DNA of 42,464 bases from a virus. Position 1 is the stretch's first letter; the number at the start of each line of letters is the position of its first letter. The notes below the pieces were generated by a model, which was not told the DNA's origin, did no database searches, and was given only the letters and a program-made list of their open reading frames with translations. The stretch is from positions 1-42,464 of the IMG/VR virus record IMGVR_UViG_3300044701_001159. The stretch is one strand, 5' to 3'. Shown piece by piece: positions 25,813 through 41,719 of the stretch. The translations under genes and the position numbers were made by a program.

Positions 25813-25833
25813 AGAGGGCTAGTGCTGCGCAGC

Positions 25834-26705: not shown

Positions 26706-26860
26706 GACGGAATCGGGCGGACGAGTCAACCCCGGGCCGTACCTCGTTTCAACCTCGTCGCTGCCATCCGAAATGCGCTGCATCGCAGCGGATGCAGTCC
26801 CGTAACGCCCTGTGTCGCGGGTGGTGTGCCAGTCGGCTTCCCGCCCATCGGCTTGATCTA

Positions 26861-26876
26861 CCCCCCCCCCCCCCCC
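26861..26876 (+). repeat. 16-base poly-C tract in regulator-recombinase gap
   Basis: Sixteen consecutive C lie in the 336-base gap 26674-27009. The rest of the gap holds the palindrome at 26692 and a TGCGCAGTCGCA element at 26902-26913 (11 of 12 to the operator), followed by the possible small gene at 26944. Otherwise I see nothing coding. The tract length may vary by slippage or be a sequencing artefact. Confidence 0.9.
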
Positions 26877-26943
26877 ACTGCGCGTAGCATCTGGATCTTG
26901 CTGCGCAGTCGCAGTACTGCCGGTACCACCAGGGAGCAGCGCG

Positions 26944-27108
26944 ATGAGGCATCACCAATCCATGGGTCTGTCCCTAGGCGAAGCCCTGAGCAGGATTGCT
27001 GATCGCGCCCTAGCGCAGCGTGATCGCGACCGACTCGCTGCCACCAGGCCAGACGATCGAGCGGATCATGTTGACCATGACCACGCGCAGCTCCTCATCC
27101 GTCGCTAG
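26944..27108 (+). CDS. possible 54-residue protein opposite the recombinase end
   Basis: ATG at 26944 has a good GGGAGC Shine-Dalgarno 7 bases upstream and follows the TGCGCAGTCGCA element. The product starts RHHQSMGLSLGEALSRIADR and becomes Asp/His/Arg-rich. Its last 99 bases overlap the recombinase 3' end on the other strand, which explains part of the open frame. It could be a Cro-position gene, but evidence is weak. Confidence 0.3.
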   Translation: MRHHQSMGLSLGEALSRIADRALAQRDRDRLAATRPDDRADHVDHDHAQLLIRR

Positions 27109-28275
27109 TTCCAGCGTCGCTGGATCCTTGAACAGCTCGCTCAGCTCACTGGTGTCCGGTGCAGCCTGCTGGACCGTGAGCAGCGCCAGCTGGGCACGCT
27201 GACGATCGATCAGTTCCTGCACCCCGGGCAGGTGGGCCACCTGCTCGAGGTTGGCCAGGTCGGCGCGCAGCTGCTGCTGCTCTGTGGTTTCCAATTCTTC
27301 GGTGCGGCCGGTGGCCTGCGCCAGCTGCTGGTGCCGTTGGGTCAACGCTTCAATCACCAGACGGCGCACCACCTCCACACGGATGCCACGACCGAACCAG
27401 TCGCAATGCCGGGCCAAGCAGGCCAGTCGGCAGGCGCGGCCTTCTCGGCATTGCGTGTGCAGATTCTTCCCGCACTGCTCGCAGGCCACCAAGCCGGTGA
27501 ACAGACGCACACGGCGTGCAGTCTGGCCACGGATGGTGGAGCGCACCTTGAGCATCGTCTGCGCACGCTCCCATTCCCCCCATGTGATGACCGGCTCCAC
27601 CTTCCCCCATTCGCCGCGGACAGCACCGCGCAGCATCGGGTTCTGGATCCAGGTGCGCACGCCCCGGGTGGTCCATGGCATGCCGGTGACCTTCACCCAG
27701 CCGCTCACGTTCATCTCGAGCTCCATCAGCTGGAGCCACATCACCCGTGCCGCCTCGAAGTGCTCAGGGTGCGGCAGCACCTGGCCGTCGACGACGCAGT
27801 AGCCGAACGGCACCTTGCCCGATCCGTAGTGGCCAGCAGCACGGCGGCGGGCGATGCCATCGCGCACCTTGGCGCCGATCAGCTTCGACTGGGCCTGGTT
27901 GACCACTGAGATCACGCCGGCCGACACGAAGCCGCTGTAGGACTCGGCCTCGATCACCCCACCGGTGAGGGCACGCACGGTGACGCCTTTCAGGGAGCAG
28001 GCATTGAGGAAGTCCAGGTCATCACCAGATCGGCTGAGGCGCGACTGATCAACGACCAGCACCTCGGTGACCTGACCCGATGCGACGATGGCCCAGAGCT
28101 CATCCCAGCCGGGTCTGCGGCCTCGATAGGCCGAGGCTCGCTCCACGATCACCCGATCGCAACCAGAGGCAAGCAGCTGCTGCTCTTGGCCCTCGATGCT
28201 GAGATCCTGCTCGATCTTGGTGGTCGAAACCCTGGCGTAGCCGACCTTCACGGGCACCTCTGACCTGTTTGCCAA
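27010..28275 (-). CDS. large serine recombinase (phage integrase)
   Basis: The 421-residue protein. The resolvase catalytic domain (1-145) has R15 and nucleophile S17 in VGYARVSTTK and a second Arg motif VDQSRLSRSGDD. A recombinase domain (about 160-270) follows (GSGKVPFGYCVVDGQ, WIQNPMLRGAVRGEW), then a zinc ribbon (CEQCGKNL, CRLACLARHC) and a coiled coil (about 310-370). It integrates and, with a directionality factor, excises the phage. TTG at 28275 lies in a candidate attP repeat; GTG at 28257 (415 residues) is an alternative with AGAGG upstream. It is shorter than many integrases (450-550). Confidence 0.92.
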   Translation of the reverse strand: MANRSEVPVKVGYARVSTTKIEQDLSIEGQEQQLLASGCDRVIVERASAYRGRRPGWDELWAIVASGQVTEVLVVDQSRLSRSGDDLDFLNACSLKGVTVRALTGGVIEAESYSGFVSAGVISVVNQAQSKLIGAKVRDGIARRRAAGHYGSGKVPFGYCVVDGQVLPHPEHFEAARVMWLQLMELEMNVSGWVKVTGMPWTTRGVRTWIQNPMLRGAVRGEWGKVEPVITWGEWERAQTMLKVRSTIRGQTARRVRLFTGLVACEQCGKNLHTQCREGRACRLACLARHCDWFGRGIRVEVVRRLVIEALTQRHQQLAQATGRTEELETTEQQQLRADLANLEQVAHLPGVQELIDRQRAQLALLTVQQAAPDTSELSELFKDPATLELATDEELRVVMVNMIRSIVWPGGSESVAITLR

Positions 28276-28305
28276 AGGTACTAGAGAAAGCTGTAGATCC
28301 TTTGG
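28272..28305. other. candidate attP (inverted repeat at recombinase start)
   Basis: CCAAAGG (28272-28278) and CCTTTGG (28299-28305) are perfect inverted arms around a 20-base centre, directly at the 5' end of the serine recombinase gene. Serine integrases recognise attP sites of about 50 bp with imperfect dyad symmetry, usually adjacent to their gene. A regulator site is the alternative. The rest of 28276-28396 shows only a Shine-Dalgarno (GGAAGGA) for the next + strand gene. Confidence 0.45.
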
Positions 28306-28396
28306 CCAGCATTTTCTGCTAGGTTCGCCCCATCGGCAGCGCGAGGCAAGGCCCGCCGCCGATCACCCCATCGCCCGGCACTGGCCGGAAGGATTT

Positions 28397-28588
28397 ATGA
28401 CCACCGCCGCATGCTTCGTCGTCTGGATCGCCGTGCTGCTGACCCTGCCGTTCATCCTGCTGCTGAGAGCCACCGAGAGCCGTGAGCAACGCGCACGTCG
28501 CTGGCGGGCCGACGGCTGGACCCAGCAGCGCATCGCCGATCGCCTCGGTTGCAGTCGCACTACGGTGAGTAGGATGCTCGCGGCCTGA
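28397..28588 (+). CDS. membrane-anchored helix-turn-helix microprotein
   Basis: The 63-residue protein has an N-terminal hydrophobic helix (ACFVVWIAVLLTLPFILLL, about 5-23), a basic linker (RATESREQRARRW), then a resolvase/Hin-type HTH (GWTQQRIADRLGCSRTTVSR, about 40-59). It would hold a DNA-binding domain at the inner membrane. A strong GGAAGGA Shine-Dalgarno lies 4-5 bases before ATG. It is divergent from the recombinase. I know no named family with this exact build. Confidence 0.8.
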   Translation: MTTAACFVVWIAVLLTLPFILLLRATESREQRARRWRADGWTQQRIADRLGCSRTTVSRMLAA

Positions 28589-28604
28589 CCGGTCCTCGCC
28601 AGTC

Positions 28605-28919
28605 ATGGATCTCTATCACTACCGCGCCGATCTGGTTCGCGTTGTTGATGGAGACACCATTGATGTAGCACTGGACCTTGGCTTCAGCCTGCGTGCACGT
28701 CACCGGTTGCGGCTGCTGGGTGTCGACACCCCAGAGCGGGGGCAGCCGGGCTTCAGCGATTCGACTGCCTTCGTGCAGCAGCGGCTGAGCAGTGCGCAGG
28801 AGATCATCATCTGGACCGTGAAGCGCGACTCGTTCGGCCGCTGGTTGGCGAACGTCTGGGCCGATGACCAGCTGCTGAATGACGAGCTGGCCGCAATGGG
28901 CTGGGGCGCACAGTTCTGA
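28605..28919 (+). CDS. thermonuclease-like (SNase family) nuclease
   Basis: The 104-residue protein has the staphylococcal nuclease core: VRVVDGDTI (D15, D17), RLRLLGVDTPER (R36, D41, T42, E44) and DSFGRWLANVW (R79), giving both catalytic Arg and the catalytic Glu. It is shorter than secreted SNases (about 150) and has no signal peptide, so it would act in the cytoplasm, perhaps on host DNA/RNA or recombination intermediates. It follows the membrane-HTH gene by 16 bases, likely co-transcribed. Confidence 0.92.
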   Translation: MDLYHYRADLVRVVDGDTIDVALDLGFSLRARHRLRLLGVDTPERGQPGFSDSTAFVQQRLSSAQEIIIWTVKRDSFGRWLANVWADDQLLNDELAAMGWGAQF

Positions 28920-28970
28920 TGATGATCACCATGGGCGATCAGTACGCCTGAACCACTTATCAATGGGATC

Positions 28971-29119
28971 CACTGCAGCGCAATGGATCTAACTCGCTGA
29001 TACATCCGTTCACCCCTGTTTGTGAACGGATGTAACGCAGGCCAGTGTGACACCTGTGGAAACTCTTTTTTCCTCAGGTACGCCCGTACTGTTTTGGGCA
29101 GATCCATTGCGCTGCAGTG
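28971..29119. repeat. 149-bp element with perfect 20-bp terminal inverted repeats
   Basis: CACTGCAGCGCAATGGATCT (28971-28990) is the exact reverse complement of 29100-29119. It encloses a second perfect inverted repeat (29001-29034) and a T6 run. It lies in the 474-base gene-free stretch 28920-29393. The design suits a replication origin, a recombination site, a structured RNA or a tiny mobile element; no flanking target duplication is seen. Confidence 0.9.
29001..29034. repeat. perfect 13-bp hairpin inside the 149-bp element
   Basis: TACATCCGTTCAC (29001-29013) and GTGAACGGATGTA (29022-29034) pair fully around the 8-base loop ccctgttt. No T run follows directly, though TTTTTT occurs at 29066-29071, so it is not a normal terminator. 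Confidence 0.9.
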
Positions 29120-29324
29120 TATTTCAGTGCCAGTGTGCGTGTACTACCTGCCGTCGTTTGGTATCAAGTTGCTACTAACTCAGCCGCCCCTTGTGCCAGT
29201 TGGGGGCCAACCCGTGTGCAGCGAGTGTGCCAGTTCTGGCTTATGTGTGCCACTACGTCACAGGCACAAGGCGGCCGGATCGACTGCGCTGCAAAGGATC
29301 TGGCCGAACTTGGTACGCCCGTAC
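29077..29324 (+). repeat. iteron-like repeats, possible replication origin
   Basis: GTGCCAGT occurs at 29127-29134, 29193-29200 and 29227-29234, with GTGCCACT at 29247-29254. GGTACGCCCGTAC occurs exactly at 29077-29089 and 29312-29324. Together with the adjacent nested inverted repeats and the absence of coding, this is the best origin candidate in the window. Confidence 0.45.
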
Positions 29325-29393
29325 CACTCTGCGGCTGGGCGCGTGACGTGACGATCTGGTGCACAGTGGTGGGGTCCCACCGCACCAGATCAC

Positions 29394-29591
29394 ATGGGCG
29401 TCCTCACCGACACGCTCCGCTCCACCCTCCGCGATCTCGCGGAATCAGATGCGCGGCTCTACCGCGGGCTCGCCACCGAGCTGGAACCCACGGTCGACGA
29501 CCTGGAGTTCCAGCCGGCGCTCCCCGCGGACGAGATCGCGGCTGCCATCGCGCTGCTCGAGGCGCACGGCTACACGGTCACCTGCGGGTGA
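29394..29591 (+). CDS. 65-residue acidic helical protein
   Basis: The product GVLTDTLRSTLRDLAESDAR... ends ADEIAAAIALLEAHGYTVTC: two helices with a small alpha-beta C-terminus. The ATG at 29394 follows a GGTGGGGTCCCACC hairpin. No family is recognised. It is the first of four small + strand genes with very high GC. Confidence 0.72.
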   Translation: MGVLTDTLRSTLRDLAESDARLYRGLATELEPTVDDLEFQPALPADEIAAAIALLEAHGYTVTCG

Positions 29592-29593
29592 CC

Positions 29594-29617
29594 GGCCCCA
29601 CGGGGCCCTGCGGGGCC
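29594..29617 (+). other. very GC-rich hairpin between small genes
   Basis: GGCCCC (29594-29599) can pair with GGGGCC at 29602-29607 or 29612-29617, so alternative hairpins are possible immediately after the stop codon. No T tract. Could limit readthrough or protect mRNA ends. Confidence 0.4.
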
Positions 29618-29647
29618 CCATCACTGATCCCCGCCACACGGCACGCC

Positions 29648-29899
29648 ATGAACCACGCCACCACCACCACCGACACCGACGCCCTGCTGGCGGAGGTGGA
29701 CGCCCTGCTGGATCAGGCCGACGCCACCAGCGCACGGGTGGACGCCCTGCTGGACGGCTGGGCCCCCCGCCCCACCACCGGCCAGCGCATGACCGCCCTG
29801 TGGGAGGGCGTGGAGCAGCTGCGCCGCTGGAACGACCAGGACGAGGCCGAGCAGGCCGACCTGCTGGCCGAGATCGAGGCCCTGGAGCAGGACGCCTGA
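29648..29899 (+). CDS. 83-residue acidic coiled-coil protein
   Basis: Starts NHATTTTDTDALLAEVDALL, with a near-repeat of DALLxxxD units (ALLAEVDALLDQAD, ARVDALLDGW), then a helix EQADLLAEIEALEQ. The heptad spacing suggests a coiled coil. The ATG at 29648 is internal to a longer open frame whose upstream part is antisense-like and not real. Function unknown. Confidence 0.7.
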   Translation: MNHATTTTDTDALLAEVDALLDQADATSARVDALLDGWAPRPTTGQRMTALWEGVEQLRRWNDQDEAEQADLLAEIEALEQDA

Positions 29900-30021
29900 G
29901 CGGCCCCCACGCGCCCCTGCAGGGCGCCTCAACGTCGCGCCCCGTGTCTCACACCGTCACGCCCTCTGCCACGCCTCACAGGCGCTCCTGTGCGCCACTC
30001 CGTCACATCACCCCGCCACGC

Positions 30022-30258
30022 ATGCCTGATCGCAGCACCATCCGCACACGCCGCTACCGCGCCCGCCTGCGCGGTCTGCCCGACCCGGCCGCCCCACAGC
30101 CGTGCCCCGGCTGTGGCCGCCTAGTGCGCAGCCGCCGCACCGCCCCCCTGTGTTCGTTCTGCTGGAAGCGATCGCCGGCAGGACGAGAGGTCAACCGTCA
30201 ACGCATGGCGGCCACCAGGGCCCAAGGCAAGGCATCACTCAATACGGAGGGATCCTGA
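30022..30258 (+). CDS. small zinc-ribbon protein
   Basis: The 78-residue product is strongly basic at the N-terminus (STIRTRRYRARLRG), then has CPGCG at about 30 and CSFCW about 15 residues later: two CxxC knuckles forming a zinc ribbon. The Arg/Lys/Gln-rich tail suggests nucleic-acid binding. ATG at 30022 is chosen because upstream codons in the frame lie in low-complexity GC-rich DNA. Possibly a small transcription regulator. Confidence 0.68.
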   Translation: MPDRSTIRTRRYRARLRGLPDPAAPQPCPGCGRLVRSRRTAPLCSFCWKRSPAGREVNRQRMAATRAQGKASLNTEGS

Positions 30259-30296
30259 TCACTGCCATGATGAAGACATACGAAATAGGAACCAAC

Positions 30297-30680
30297 ATGC
30301 TTCGCATCCTCATAGCTCTCGCTGTCCTCATGCCATCCACCGCGATGGCGCAATGGGGCTACGATCCGAGCCAGAGTGCAGCCGCTGCATACTGCGCCGC
30401 ACGACAGGCGGGGAAGTCCCACAGGCAGGGTGAGAATGCTGCACGCAATGCCGTCGTCAATGCCACCGGTGGATCGTTTGCCAACCAGCTTGGTGCGATC
30501 CTCACCGGCGGCAGGCAGGCGATGCAAACCGCCAACTACCTGGCGCAGAAGATGTGTCCAGAGTGGTTTGAAGGCAGCAGCACCGTTGCATCTGACTACC
30601 GGCCGATGCTTCCGGCCAATGCGGCATGCATCAATCCAAAGGAAGGAGAAGATTGCGTGATCCGCAATCCGTTCCAATAA
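30297..30680 (+). CDS. secreted small protein with signal peptide
   Basis: The 127-residue protein has an N-terminal signal peptide LRILIALAVLMPSTAMA with a likely cut before QWGYD. The mature part is YCAARQAGKSHRQGENAARN, then a Gly/Ala/Gln region and two Cys-containing motifs (KMCPEW, AACINP, EDCVI). Starts at 30267/30270 would add a basic leader; 30297 has an AGGA Shine-Dalgarno and a clean signal. Small secreted proteins of this kind are found in picocyanobacteria. A lysogenic-conversion role is possible. Confidence 0.75.
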   Translation: MLRILIALAVLMPSTAMAQWGYDPSQSAAAAYCAARQAGKSHRQGENAARNAVVNATGGSFANQLGAILTGGRQAMQTANYLAQKMCPEWFEGSSTVASDYRPMLPANAACINPKEGEDCVIRNPFQ

Positions 30681-30705
30681 AAAAAGGGCGGTCCCACAAC
30701 CGCCC
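30679..30705 (-). terminator. strong terminator of the leftward operon
   Basis: On the minus strand, GGGCGGT, loop tgtggg, ACCGCCC is followed by T7 (A7 at 30679-30685 on the + strand). It ends the long operon that finishes with dcd. The hairpin may also weakly stop + strand transcription. Confidence 0.9.
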
Positions 30706-30737
30706 ACCACCCTCTACCGCTTCACGGTAGGTACGGC

Positions 30738-31325
30738 TCAGATCCGGGCCAGCGTCACCCGTTCAGGCTGGTTCTGGTACTTGCCAGCACGACCCGCGTA
30801 GGTCGTCTCGCATGGTTCACCCTCAAAGAACAGCGCCTGCACAATGCCTTCACCGGCATACACCCGACAGTCGGCACTGGACGAGTTGGAGAGCTCCAGG
30901 GTCAGGTGGCCGGTCCAGCCGGCTTCGCCCGGGGTGGTGTTGGCGATGATCCCGCACCTGGCGTAGGTCGACTTGCCGATGAACAGCGCCGTGATGGTGC
31001 GAGGCAGGGCGATGCGCTCCACCGTCACGCCCAGGCCGTAGCTGTGGGCCGGGAGGATGAAGTAGGAGCCGCGCTCGAGGTCGTGGTGCAGCGGCGCTGG
31101 CGAGAGGTTGGCCGGGTTGAAGGCTTTGGGATCCATCACCGTGCCAGGAACGTGCTGGAAGGTGAAGAATTCCTGCGGCGACAGGCGTAGGTCGTAGCCG
31201 TAGGAGGAGCAGCCGTAGCTGAGCACCTTGGTGTTGTCGACGGTGCGGATCAACTCAGGCTCAAAGGGACTGAGCATGCCGGCCTTGGCTTGGGCGCGGA
31301 TCCAGGAATCAGATCGGATGGTCAT
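30738..31325 (-). CDS. dcd: dCTP deaminase
   Basis: The 195-residue protein converts dCTP to dUTP and ammonia, feeding dTTP synthesis for replication. Family motifs are intact: GCSSYGYDLRLSP, FIGKSTYARCGIIANTTPGE, GWTGHLTLELSN (catalytic Glu in TLELSN), GEGIVQALFF, and a Gln/Tyr-rich C-terminus (YQNQPERV). Full length compared with the usual 190-195. It is the last gene of the operon, with a 4-base ATGA overlap with the zinc-ribbon/HTH gene upstream and a terminator 33 bases downstream. Confidence 0.95.
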   Translation of the reverse strand: MTIRSDSWIRAQAKAGMLSPFEPELIRTVDNTKVLSYGCSSYGYDLRLSPQEFFTFQHVPGTVMDPKAFNPANLSPAPLHHDLERGSYFILPAHSYGLGVTVERIALPRTITALFIGKSTYARCGIIANTTPGEAGWTGHLTLELSNSSSADCRVYAGEGIVQALFFEGEPCETTYAGRAGKYQNQPERVTLARI

Positions 31326-31756
31326 GGGAGATGGGACCAGAGCTTGCGGGTGACGATGCGGGAGACGGTGGCGGGAGCGATGCCGTAGGTGGCAGCGATG
31401 TGCTTCTGCGAGGTGCCATTGGCAGCCAGCTCACGCAGGCGGCGGACATCGTCCTCGGTGAGTACGGCGGCGCCGTTGGCTGTGCCGCGGGCCACCGGGC
31501 CGAGGCGGCGGCCACCAGGCTTGGGGCCCCGCCTGGAGAAGACGACGGGATCAACCGTCGGCTGATCGTTGGACCAGGTGACAGCACCAGGCGGGAGGGG
31601 ATACTCCCGCGACTGATGGGTGTACCAGCGATGGCCGCAGTCTTGGCAACGGCGGCGACGTAGCAGGTTGCCGTTCTCGAGGGGGCGGGTCGTGATGACG
31701 AGGATGCGGTCAGTGCGGCACTGGGGGCAGAGCACCTTGCATGTGGGTGATGCCAT
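31322..31756 (-). CDS. NrdR-type zinc ribbon fused to a HTH
   Basis: The 144-residue protein. Residues 8-50 match the NrdR zinc ribbon (CPQC, VITTRPLENGNLLRRRRCQDC, HRWYTHQ), but the ATP-cone is absent. A Gly/Arg/Pro linker leads to a Hin-like HTH (about 110-135, NGTSQKHIAATYGIAPATVS). NrdR represses ribonucleotide reductase genes and senses dNTP/ATP. This version could bind such operators without nucleotide control. ATG at 31756 is coupled to the previous stop (TGATG). Adjacent to dcd, consistent with nucleotide metabolism control. Confidence 0.8.
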   Translation of the reverse strand: MASPTCKVLCPQCRTDRILVITTRPLENGNLLRRRRCQDCGHRWYTHQSREYPLPPGAVTWSNDQPTVDPVVFSRRGPKPGGRRLGPVARGTANGAAVLTEDDVRRLRELAANGTSQKHIAATYGIAPATVSRIVTRKLWSHLP

Positions 31757-32025
31757 CAGATGTGCCGCTGCCTGGCCCACCGGCGGATGCGATTCTCGCG
31801 CTCAAGCAGTTCCACCCGTTCGCGTGAGGTGAGCCGATCCAGCGGCACCCGCTCGCAAATCGTGCCCTCTGGCAGGTAGTGATCCAGCCAGGCGAGGCCG
31901 TGCTCAATGGTGTCGGCAACGATGCCCAGGGCCGCGGCGAACAGCCCAGCAGGGGTGATCAGCACGAGGCGCAGCAACAGCCATGGCCAGATGTTGCGCT
32001 CGCGCAGATAGGTTCGATCAGTCAT
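31756..32025 (-). CDS. 89-residue membrane protein
   Basis: A basic N-terminus (TDRTYLRERNIW) precedes a hydrophobic stretch PWLLLRLVLITPAGLFAAAL and a second weaker one, then a charged C-terminal helix (LTSRERVELLERENRIRRW). A strong Shine-Dalgarno AGGAGAG precedes ATG at 32025. It overlaps the upstream gene by 8 bases (ATGACTGA). No family is recognised. Confidence 0.75.
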   Translation of the reverse strand: MTDRTYLRERNIWPWLLLRLVLITPAGLFAAALGIVADTIEHGLAWLDHYLPEGTICERVPLDRLTSRERVELLERENRIRRWARQRHI

Positions 32026-39286: not shown

Positions 39287-39325
39287 TCCCTCGGTTCAGC
39301 CCACCACGCCCCACCACGCCACGTG

Positions 39326-41719
39326 ATGCTCTCTACCGCCCTTCTCGCCTCACTTGAGGCGATCGATTCCGATTGGCGGCTCATCCCGTGCGATGACCGC
39401 AAGCGACCCGTAGATCCCACCACCGGGCATCCATTGGATGACTGGGTGTCGCATGCCGCCACCCTCGACGAGATCGCCGGCACTGCCGCCTCGCCCCACG
39501 TCCATGCGCTCGGCCTGGTACTTGGTCCCATCTCCGGTGTGCTCGCGGTCGACTTCGATGGCACCGGCAGCACCGCCACCTTCCGCGAGGTTTTCGGCCG
39601 TCCGCAGTCCGATCTGCCGCCGACACCCGCCTGGTCCTCTGGTCGCCCCAACCGCCGGCAGCTCGCGTTCCGCGTGCCCTTTGAATACTGGCCGCACCTT
39701 CGTGGTCGCCGCTTCTGGCAGCGCGATGGCCGCACCGTCCTTGAGCTCCGCTGGGCAGGCCATCAGTCCGTCATCGCCGGCGCCCACCCGGACACAGCCG
39801 GCTATCACTGGATCCCCAATCGATCGCCTTCTGATCTTCAAGTTGCCGACGCACCCGACTGGCTGCTGGAGCCACTGATCAAGCCGCCGACCGAATCACC
39901 CGACACCGACTACGAGCCATCAGCAGGCGACGCGCAGCGTGCCTTGGAGTTGCTCCAGCACATCCAGCCCCGCGATGACTACAGCAGCTGGCTGTCGATC
40001 GGCATGGCACTCCATTCCGCCGATCCAGGGCTGCTCGATGCCTGGGTCAGCTGGTCGCAGGGCTGCAGCAACTTCAATGAAGACGAGTGCCGCGCCAAGT
40101 GGCCCAGCTTCAAAGGCCGCGGCATCACCACCGGCACGCTCCATTGGTTCGCCTCACAAGACGGCTACCTCGCGCCGGCAGCGCCTGAGTTCGAGTGGAA
40201 CCCACCGGATGACCTGCTCGACGATGAGCCCCAGGGCCAGCAGCAGGCACCCGACACCGGCACCACCGACACCCTCACGGAAGAGATCGAGAATGCCCGT
40301 GAGCGGCTCCAGCAGCAGCTGGCCAATCTCGACGCATCCATCAACCTGGCGCTGATCCTTCCGCCACGGCTCGCGCATGCCCTGATCAGCAAGGCGGAAT
40401 CCATGTCAGCGGATCCGTCCGCCTTCCTCGGCCCTCTTCTCACCGCTGCGGCCTCCGTCGTCGGCACCAGGGCCAAGGTGGTGGTCAACCCCGGCTGGTC
40501 TGAGCCATTCGTCATCTGGGCCGGCAACATCCTCCCGCCATCGGCGATGAAGTCACCCATCCTGGGTGCCATCGCTGAACCACTCGTTGCTCGCCAGCAA
40601 GCTGGCCTCAAGGCTCACCTCGAGGAACTCCGCCAGCTGCGCCGCGATGGCGAGAAGGACCCGGACATCCCGCCACCACGTCGCTGGCTGGTCAGTGATG
40701 CCACCTACGAACGCCTCGCGCAGATCTGCGCCGAGCCTCGCACCTACGGCATCTGGTCCCAGCAGGATGAACTGGCCGGCTGGTTTGAACGCCTCGATGC
40801 CCGCCAGTCCGCCGGCGCCCGAGCAGGCTGGCTCAGCCTCTGGGGTGGTGGTGCTGCCCTGATCGATCGCAAGGTGGCCGCCAGCTCCATGGCGACACGC
40901 TCTGCCGTCTCCCTCTTCGGCAACGTGCAACCCGAGCGGCTGCTCAACATGATCGAGGCCCAAGGCGACGATGCCGCCGCTGCCGGTGATGGCCTATGGG
41001 CACGCTTTCTCTGGTGCCGCCCACCGCAGCGCGTTTGGTCGTACAACCCCAACGGCCTCTCCATCTACTCCTACCTGTCCTCCCTGGTCGCCTCGCTTGA
41101 TGGCGTGCCCCAGTCGCTGCAATCCGACGACGACCCCAATGCCATCGGCTTTGAGGTGCGCCTACCTCACGAGGTGGTGATGGAGCTCGCCGCACCCACC
41201 TGGGAGACCTGGGCGCAGGACGCGATCGGCTCCACTCCCGCACGTGCGGCCTTCCTCGGCAAGCTGCGCGGCTACTCCTGCCGCCTCATGGGCATCCTGC
41301 AGATGATCGAGCTGGCGGAATCCGCCCACATGGCCGGCTGCCCACTGTCGACCATGTGCGAATGCGATCCGAGCAGCGGCGCCTGGTTCATTGAGGTGTC
41401 GCCCGCCATGGTCGGCTACGGCCTGCTGCTGTCCGATTGGTACCGCGCCCAGTTCGATGCCATCTCTACCGAACTGGGCTCCAGTGAGCTGCGCGCCCCT
41501 GTCGCCCGGTTCCTGCGCCTCGTGCGTGAATCCGGCCGGCAGGAGGTCACACCCCGCGACGTGATGACCTGGCGGGTCTTCGGTCGCCAGAAGATCGACT
41601 CAACCATCGCCCTGCGCTTCCTGCGCCAGCTGGTCGAGGTCTATGGCCATGGCGCCATGAAGGCCGGCAAGAGGAAGGGGTCGATGGTCTGGGTTGCGAA
41701 CAAAGAGCCTGAGGCTTGA
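39326..41719 (+). CDS. replicative primase-helicase type (prim-pol + PriCT + DUF3987)
   Basis: The 797-residue protein. Residues 1-180 form an archaeo-eukaryotic type prim-pol: metal motif VLAVDFDGTG and SVIAGAHPDTAGYHWIP. Residues about 210-270 are PriCT (ALELLQHIQPRDDYSSWLSI, RAKWPSFKGRGIT). Residues about 320-700 are DUF3987-like, where the P-loop region reads NILPPSAMKSP, keeping K-S but lacking the usual glycines. It probably primes and may unwind phage DNA. A GTG at 39323 precedes ATG by one codon. It overlaps the promoter at 41716. Confidence 0.88.
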   Translation: MLSTALLASLEAIDSDWRLIPCDDRKRPVDPTTGHPLDDWVSHAATLDEIAGTAASPHVHALGLVLGPISGVLAVDFDGTGSTATFREVFGRPQSDLPPTPAWSSGRPNRRQLAFRVPFEYWPHLRGRRFWQRDGRTVLELRWAGHQSVIAGAHPDTAGYHWIPNRSPSDLQVADAPDWLLEPLIKPPTESPDTDYEPSAGDAQRALELLQHIQPRDDYSSWLSIGMALHSADPGLLDAWVSWSQGCSNFNEDECRAKWPSFKGRGITTGTLHWFASQDGYLAPAAPEFEWNPPDDLLDDEPQGQQQAPDTGTTDTLTEEIENARERLQQQLANLDASINLALILPPRLAHALISKAESMSADPSAFLGPLLTAAASVVGTRAKVVVNPGWSEPFVIWAGNILPPSAMKSPILGAIAEPLVARQQAGLKAHLEELRQLRRDGEKDPDIPPPRRWLVSDATYERLAQICAEPRTYGIWSQQDELAGWFERLDARQSAGARAGWLSLWGGGAALIDRKVAASSMATRSAVSLFGNVQPERLLNMIEAQGDDAAAAGDGLWARFLWCRPPQRVWSYNPNGLSIYSYLSSLVASLDGVPQSLQSDDDPNAIGFEVRLPHEVVMELAAPTWETWAQDAIGSTPARAAFLGKLRGYSCRLMGILQMIELAESAHMAGCPLSTMCECDPSSGAWFIEVSPAMVGYGLLLSDWYRAQFDAISTELGSSELRAPVARFLRLVRESGRQEVTPRDVMTWRVFGRQKIDSTIALRFLRQLVEVYGHGAMKAGKRKGSMVWVANKEPEA

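Follow-up and report, generated by a model that had tools for sequence, protein, structure and literature searches.

A conserved palindrome-bearing noncoding module in a picocyanobacterial phage and its possible part in replication

Nested inverted repeats in a noncoding gap

The DNA analysed here, referred to over its whole length as the window, is a 42,464-bp IMG/VR contig without an exact terminal repeat. For the large terminase, the nearest relative is that of Synechococcus phage S-LBS1 (53% aa), and for the tail protein, those of Prochlorococcus phages; we therefore take the source to be a siphovirus-like phage of picocyanobacteria. A partial contig that is nearly identical (L010/L011, 99.9%) also exists. 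A gap of 474 bp separates an SNase-like gene (28605-28919) from a 65-aa ORF of no known family (29394-29591, plus strand). Within this gap, positions 28971-28990 (CACTGCAGCGCAATGGATCT) are the reverse complement of positions 29100-29119 (AGATCCATTGCGCTGCAGTG), forming a perfect 20-bp inverted repeat. The repeat encloses a T6 run (29066-29071) and a perfect 13-bp hairpin with an 8-nt loop (29001-29034), in which 29001-29013 (TACATCCGTTCAC) pairs with the inverted GTGAACGGATGTA at 29022-29034. The initial annotation had described this nested arrangement, and its coordinates and letters check exactly; its gene-free location is likewise correct, as the repeats fall between genes ending at 28919 and starting at 29394. 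When the window was shuffled 60 times with dinucleotide composition preserved, no 20-bp inverted repeat within 200 bp was obtained, and perfect 13-bp hairpins with a loop of ≤20 arose at a mean of 0.08 per shuffle, compared to one of each in the real window. Neither repeat is expected from chance alone.

Upstream of the gap lie a gene (28397-28588, plus strand) for a 63-aa protein whose N-terminus is membrane-like and which has a helix-turn-helix, and, on the minus strand, a gene for a 421-aa serine recombinase/integrase (27010-28275; Resolvase domain, phrog_95), of which a single near-identical relative was found among viral contigs. The gap between 26673 and 27010 holds a run of ~17 G on the minus strand at ~26845-26885. 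To the right, a 152-aa ORF (31322-31780, minus strand) weakly matches the zinc-ribbon end of NrdR (E 1.9e-6, short of the curated cut-off). The PrimPol primase of the phage is encoded 10 kb from the repeats, at 39323-41719. An intergenic repeat, GCTGTGACTGCGCARCA, occurs three times upstream (38902, 39059, and 39248) and once just downstream (41722) of this primase gene, all on the plus strand, and twice more on the minus strand (25899 and 26902); these copies are candidate iterons or operators of the window's own primase region.

A 25-bp palindrome within a conserved module

The two 20-bp arms make up most of two among three copies of an imperfect 25-bp palindrome, AGATCnnYTGC-RSY-GCARnnGATCT. 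Site 1 (GGATCCACTGCAGCGCAATGGATCT, 28966-28990, plus strand; PWM score 37.8) contains the left arm, site 2 (AGATCCATTGCGCTGCAGTGTATTT, 29100-29124, plus strand; score 28.6) contains the right arm, and site 3 (GGATCGACTGCGCTGCAAAGGATCT, 29277-29301, plus strand; score 31.7) lies outside the 28971-29119 interval first reported. A PWM scan of the window returned exactly these three sites and nothing else above 8, and the reversed window, used as a control, gave no score above 4. Of 48 strict viral sites, 41 are mixed, with TTGC in one half and CTGC in the other, as would suit two half-sites that are each contacted by protein; the mixing may reflect avoidance of perfect palindromes. A role of Dam methylation at GATC was rejected because degenerate sites lose GATC. 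The core sequences of the palindrome were in no paper found by our literature search.

Searching with a 17-mer of the arm brought up other phages; two of them (L004 and L005) have a counterpart of this gene-free region that can be aligned with it, with five to six motif copies in each phage. Scanning viral contigs with a degenerate pattern yielded 52 stretches. Over 28956-29393, the window can be aligned with at least 16 of the cyanophage contigs concerned, at 64-76% identity and with nearly no indels. This stretch of ~438 bp is a noncoding module, rich in direct and inverted repeats, with a GC content of 57% vs. 61% for the window. The left flanks of the module are unrelated among the aligned relatives. 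On its right, the 65-aa ORF is kept in most relatives and is swapped for another gene in four (L042, L037, L014, and L017). Site 2 keeps its position in relatives, with one half degenerate. Stop codons interrupt all six frames of the module, save one minus frame in one relative, and by this reading it is conserved cis-acting DNA rather than a gene. The element originally delimited at 28971-29119 is thus real but incomplete, since the third palindrome copy lies outside it and the conserved unit spans 28956-29393.

When the three sites were masked, the module contained 41 pairs of repeated 7-mers vs. 10.7 expected, a number that none of 200 shuffles reached. A dyad, CACCTGTGGAAA ... TTTCCTCAGGT (29051-29079), contains the T6 run; its CACCTGTGGAAA half is invariant across 17 of 17 aligned sequences, and the partner TTTTCCACAGGT is intact in L004. 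We take this dyad to resemble DnaA boxes (TGTGGAAAN). The sequence GGTACGCCCGTAC, presumably similar to cyanobacterial LexA boxes, occurs on the plus strand at 29077-29089 and again as an exact repeat at 29312-29324, where it adjoins site 3. Between them lies a cluster of TGTGCCAGT/GTGTGCCACT repeats (29189-29271), aligned in relatives, with direct exact copies at 29192 and 29226, a variant at 29245, and an inverted copy at 29260-29271.

The initial annotation held that perfect conservation of both dyads implies selection. This did not survive comparison with relatives: among 14 distinct homologous modules, the exact 20-bp and exact 13-bp pairings are found in this phage only. Only the window has complementary bases at the centre of the 20-bp arms (28978/29112), a T-A pair at 29009/29026 of the hairpin occurs in one module of 14 (that of the window), and the 13-bp helix is broken in L051, L055, L017, and L040; the helix of the ACCTGTGGAAA dyad was left out of this comparison. 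Over 100 distinct palindromes, arm pairing equals the value for independent positions at each position pair, with no covariation. L042 and L047 have site 3 in opposite orientations, one copy being the exact reverse complement of the other, with the flanks oriented alike, so individual sites flip in place. Given the broken hairpin, the in-place flips, and the lack of covariation in the arms, we conclude that the unit is a double-stranded DNA site with two half-sites and not an RNA or cruciform stem. Judged by these alignments, what is conserved is the half-site sequence together with the module, not the stems. Drift without compensatory change in the stems, which had been named beforehand as the observation that would speak against the element, is what the 100 palindromes and 14 modules display, and it tells against any stem-dependent role.

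These results bear directly on the idea of a structured RNA, a terminator, or an extruded cruciform with selected stems. The perfect stems of this phage and the T6 run are what one would expect of such an element, and some single sites elsewhere (L006 and L039) are terminator-like. Against these stand the absence of covariation over 100 distinct sites and a hairpin that is broken in several relatives. Moreover, an Rfam search of the region at the gathering cut-off and at E ≤ 1 gave no match, a tRNA scan found none, and no terminator-like site was found in the module. We consider a selected stem extremely unlikely. In short, the element is real, conserved, and larger than noted, and was misread as a stem structure; the description as a selected, gene-free cis element stands by virtue of the half-site sequence and the module conserved across relatives.

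Copies beside primases and in host genomes

Further copies had been proposed as something to look for in phage and host genomes, and they are present in cyanophage contigs and in some picocyanobacterial genomes. Since the window's own primase gave two loci only, we used as a test set 42 relatives of the L016 primase that are 44-93% identical. In 34 of the 42, the 470 bp that follow the primase stop codon contain a PWM site with a score of ≥10, mostly at 38-70 bp, whereas reversed-sequence controls gave no score above 3; some of the 34 loci are close kin, and the number is not one of independent events. The palindrome is constant at these loci, and its flanks are phage-specific iteron arrays (TAACG, CATACGG, CCGTGACA, or GTAACA), with the iterons inverted about the palindrome in L239 and an AT-rich stretch beside the site in L253 and L267. 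Repeats exceeded dinucleotide shuffles (p ≤ 0.05) in 16 of 21 post-primase flanks vs. 1 of 21 coding controls.

The association extends to other primases. The palindrome lies 3′ of PrimPol/DUF3987 genes in S-LBS1, L006, L034, and L087 and 3′ of a zinc-ribbon primase in L077; profile comparison of the two primase types detected no similarity and no common C-terminal domain. Its neighbours are GGTTAGG iterons in S-LBS1 and L049, and GGGGGAAGTC iterons in L014. Three phages that carry the module (L042, L049, and L014) have, in addition to it, a second repeat region with the site. In S-LBS1, L233, L042, and L016, the post-primase site and the minimum of the GC skew are ~0.3-2.6 kb apart. Syn5 has one site in each terminal repeat and nowhere else, and in some other phages the palindrome lies near terminase genes without an obvious primase. 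A distant blastn search of the region against named phages returned no match; blastn with 30-31-mers of the site gave weak matches, of which those in S-LBS1 (PWM score 10.5) and Syn5 (19.8) hold up. No convincing palindrome matches were found in a plasmid collection.

Clustering of the genes at site-bearing loci revealed no binding protein or regulator common to all. Homologues of the 63-aa protein with the membrane-like N-terminus and helix-turn-helix occur near the module in many relatives and also in S-CBS3. We rejected this protein as the binder, as S-CBS3 encodes it but has no sites, and no homologue was detected in Syn5, which has sites.

Among 300 Cyanobiaceae genomes, 27 contain a strict site, and a sequence-only model placed dozens of palindrome copies in some picocyanobacterial genomes. 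Most of the copies that we examined (in G038, G076, and G086) are inside elements of ~1.7-1.8 kb that encode an IS5-family transposase, with the palindrome ahead of the transposase gene, ~20 bp in from one end of the element. Loci L320-L334 (G038, G063, G076, G086, and G090) represent such high-copy palindromes, the IS5-family context being putative for G063. Separately, the palindrome occurs a few bases to ~30 bp after the argJ stop codon at six loci from AT-rich Prochlorococcus (L204, L217, L314, L336, L337, and L338); a conserved native host site near argJ was dismissed, as only 4 of 41 genomes have it. The position in IS5-family elements suggests transcription control or a host factor used in transposition. 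It keeps alive an operator function, taken up below, and makes it possible that one host protein serves many mobile elements. We suggest, tentatively, that the palindrome is the target of a single host-encoded picocyanobacterial DNA-binding protein that unrelated mobile elements have each recruited. Just as tentatively, the recruiting elements would comprise siphophages, T7-like phages, prophage-like elements, and IS5-family transposons, with the box at origins and at transposase promoters.

The dozens of copies inside IS5-family elements also raise the question of whether the phage palindromes are remnants of IS5-family ends scattered into phages, that is, a miniature mobile or IS-derived element. 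The phage copies, however, have neither IS flanks nor target duplications, the site keeps one position across a primase clade that is 44-93% identical, and the module aligns without insertions at the sites, making such an origin of the palindrome very unlikely.

The host copies are similarly compatible with an attachment or resolution site for the serine recombinase or with a dif-like Xer site, as are the recombinase gene 0.7 kb away and the palindromic sites with asymmetric half-sites (mixed in 41 of 48). Yet no recombinase homologue was found near the module in any relative, and recombination would delete the several close copies. The odd-length centre of the palindrome ill suits the 2-bp crossover of serine recombinases, and the small proportion of Cyanobiaceae genomes with a strict site argues against a universal dif. 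We give recombination at this locus hardly any probability. From the candidate functions first put forward, a replication origin thus fits best, with the evidence arguing against an attachment or resolution site, a structured noncoding RNA, and a miniature mobile element.

Predicted function and nearest known systems

We predict that, in this picocyanobacterial phage, the element belongs to a region of the replication-origin type or one that controls replication, a proposal based on sequence comparison that we regard as about evenly balanced. The functional unit would be the 25-bp imperfect palindrome with its two inverted half-sites (AGATCnnYTGC), present in three copies in a repeat-rich module. 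A dimeric, perhaps host-encoded, protein would bind each palindrome as double-stranded DNA; several bound sites and the adjoining iteron-like repeats could then nucleate a complex that opens the DNA and loads the replication machinery, or that controls this step. We infer that the post-primase arrays are origins, that the module of the window has this function too, and that the binding protein is dimeric.

The features taken as criteria of an origin are present in part. Short repeats above chance in a noncoding region are found in the module. An adjoining initiator or primase gene is found beside the palindrome in other phages and is lacking beside the window module, which also lacks an AT-rich unwinding region. 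The GC-skew minimum of the window is at the contig ends, with the module nearer the maximum at 25824. Also against an origin, the window's own primase is flanked by other repeats, GCTGTGACTGCGCARCA, and the presence of the palindrome inside IS5-family elements counts against an origin role, which makes no sense there; so do the palindromes near terminase genes in phages where no primase is obvious. The distance of 10 kb to the primase, the position off the skew minimum, the lack of AT richness, and the two regions in L042, L049, and L014 are our reasons for wording the prediction as origin-type or replication-control, possibly the second of two such regions. Because the primase lies 10 kb away, the window module may be a second origin or control region, comparable to P4 crr, rather than the only origin.

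The main rival to a replication role is an operator region, in which a dimeric regulator on the three palindromes would control a rightward small-gene operon from 29394; this we regard as possible, though on the unlikely side. The module is indeed directly upstream of a conserved small-gene operon, and the GTACGCCCGTAC repeats look like LexA-type operators (a resemblance in sequence only). However, the right-hand gene is swappable while the module is retained, and no sigma-70-like promoter was found in 28200-30800. Elsewhere, the operator would control the post-primase operon (terminase genes) in phages and the transposase promoter in IS elements, an extension to which we give similarly limited credence. 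Here, the site is only at the transposase-promoter end of IS5-family elements, and L035-type phages have it just upstream of a likely small-terminase gene. Against operator control, the L016 primase clade keeps a near-constant distance of 42-51 bp from the primase stop codon to the site, inside iteron arrays, and no regulator gene is common to all site-bearing loci.

Cyanophage replication origins are almost unmapped. If the replication role is correct, a 25-bp site that marks iteron regions beside the primases of many unrelated cyanophages would make origins predictable from sequence, and a common factor, perhaps from the host, would be needed by many mobile elements of picocyanobacteria that are abundant in freshwater and the sea.

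Known systems share parts of this arrangement. In pRN1 of Sulfolobus, the origin is a stem-loop that starts ~54 bp 3′ of the primase-helicase gene and retains its function at other places in the plasmid, and a similar stem-loop downstream of the PrimPol replication gene of phage BIP-1 is a proposed origin (PMC4234260). The palindromes described here resemble these in being dyad-containing noncoding elements 3′ of a primase, with agreement in both position and primase type. In pRN1 and BIP-1, however, structure is conserved and sequence is not, over a stem-loop of ~100 nt, whereas the palindromes described here keep their half-site sequence but not their pairing and have iterons around them; in addition, the origin there is beside the primase, unlike the window module. 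Since the conservation pattern is the opposite, we do not class the element as a pRN1-type origin.

Replication of satellite phage P4 needs two separated repeat-bearing regions, ori and crr, served by a primase-helicase, and alpha, a protein of P4 itself, binds the iterons. The module plus second site-bearing region of L042, L049, and L014 is similar in layout. Unlike in P4, primases of unrelated types have the palindrome in common, which makes the primase an improbable binder. In RSF1010, oriV combines iterons with inverted ssi sites near the primase gene, and the ssi sites act as single-strand hairpins. Shared with the present case is the placing of imperfect palindromes among the iterons of an origin close to a primase gene, whereas the sites described here show no selection for pairing.
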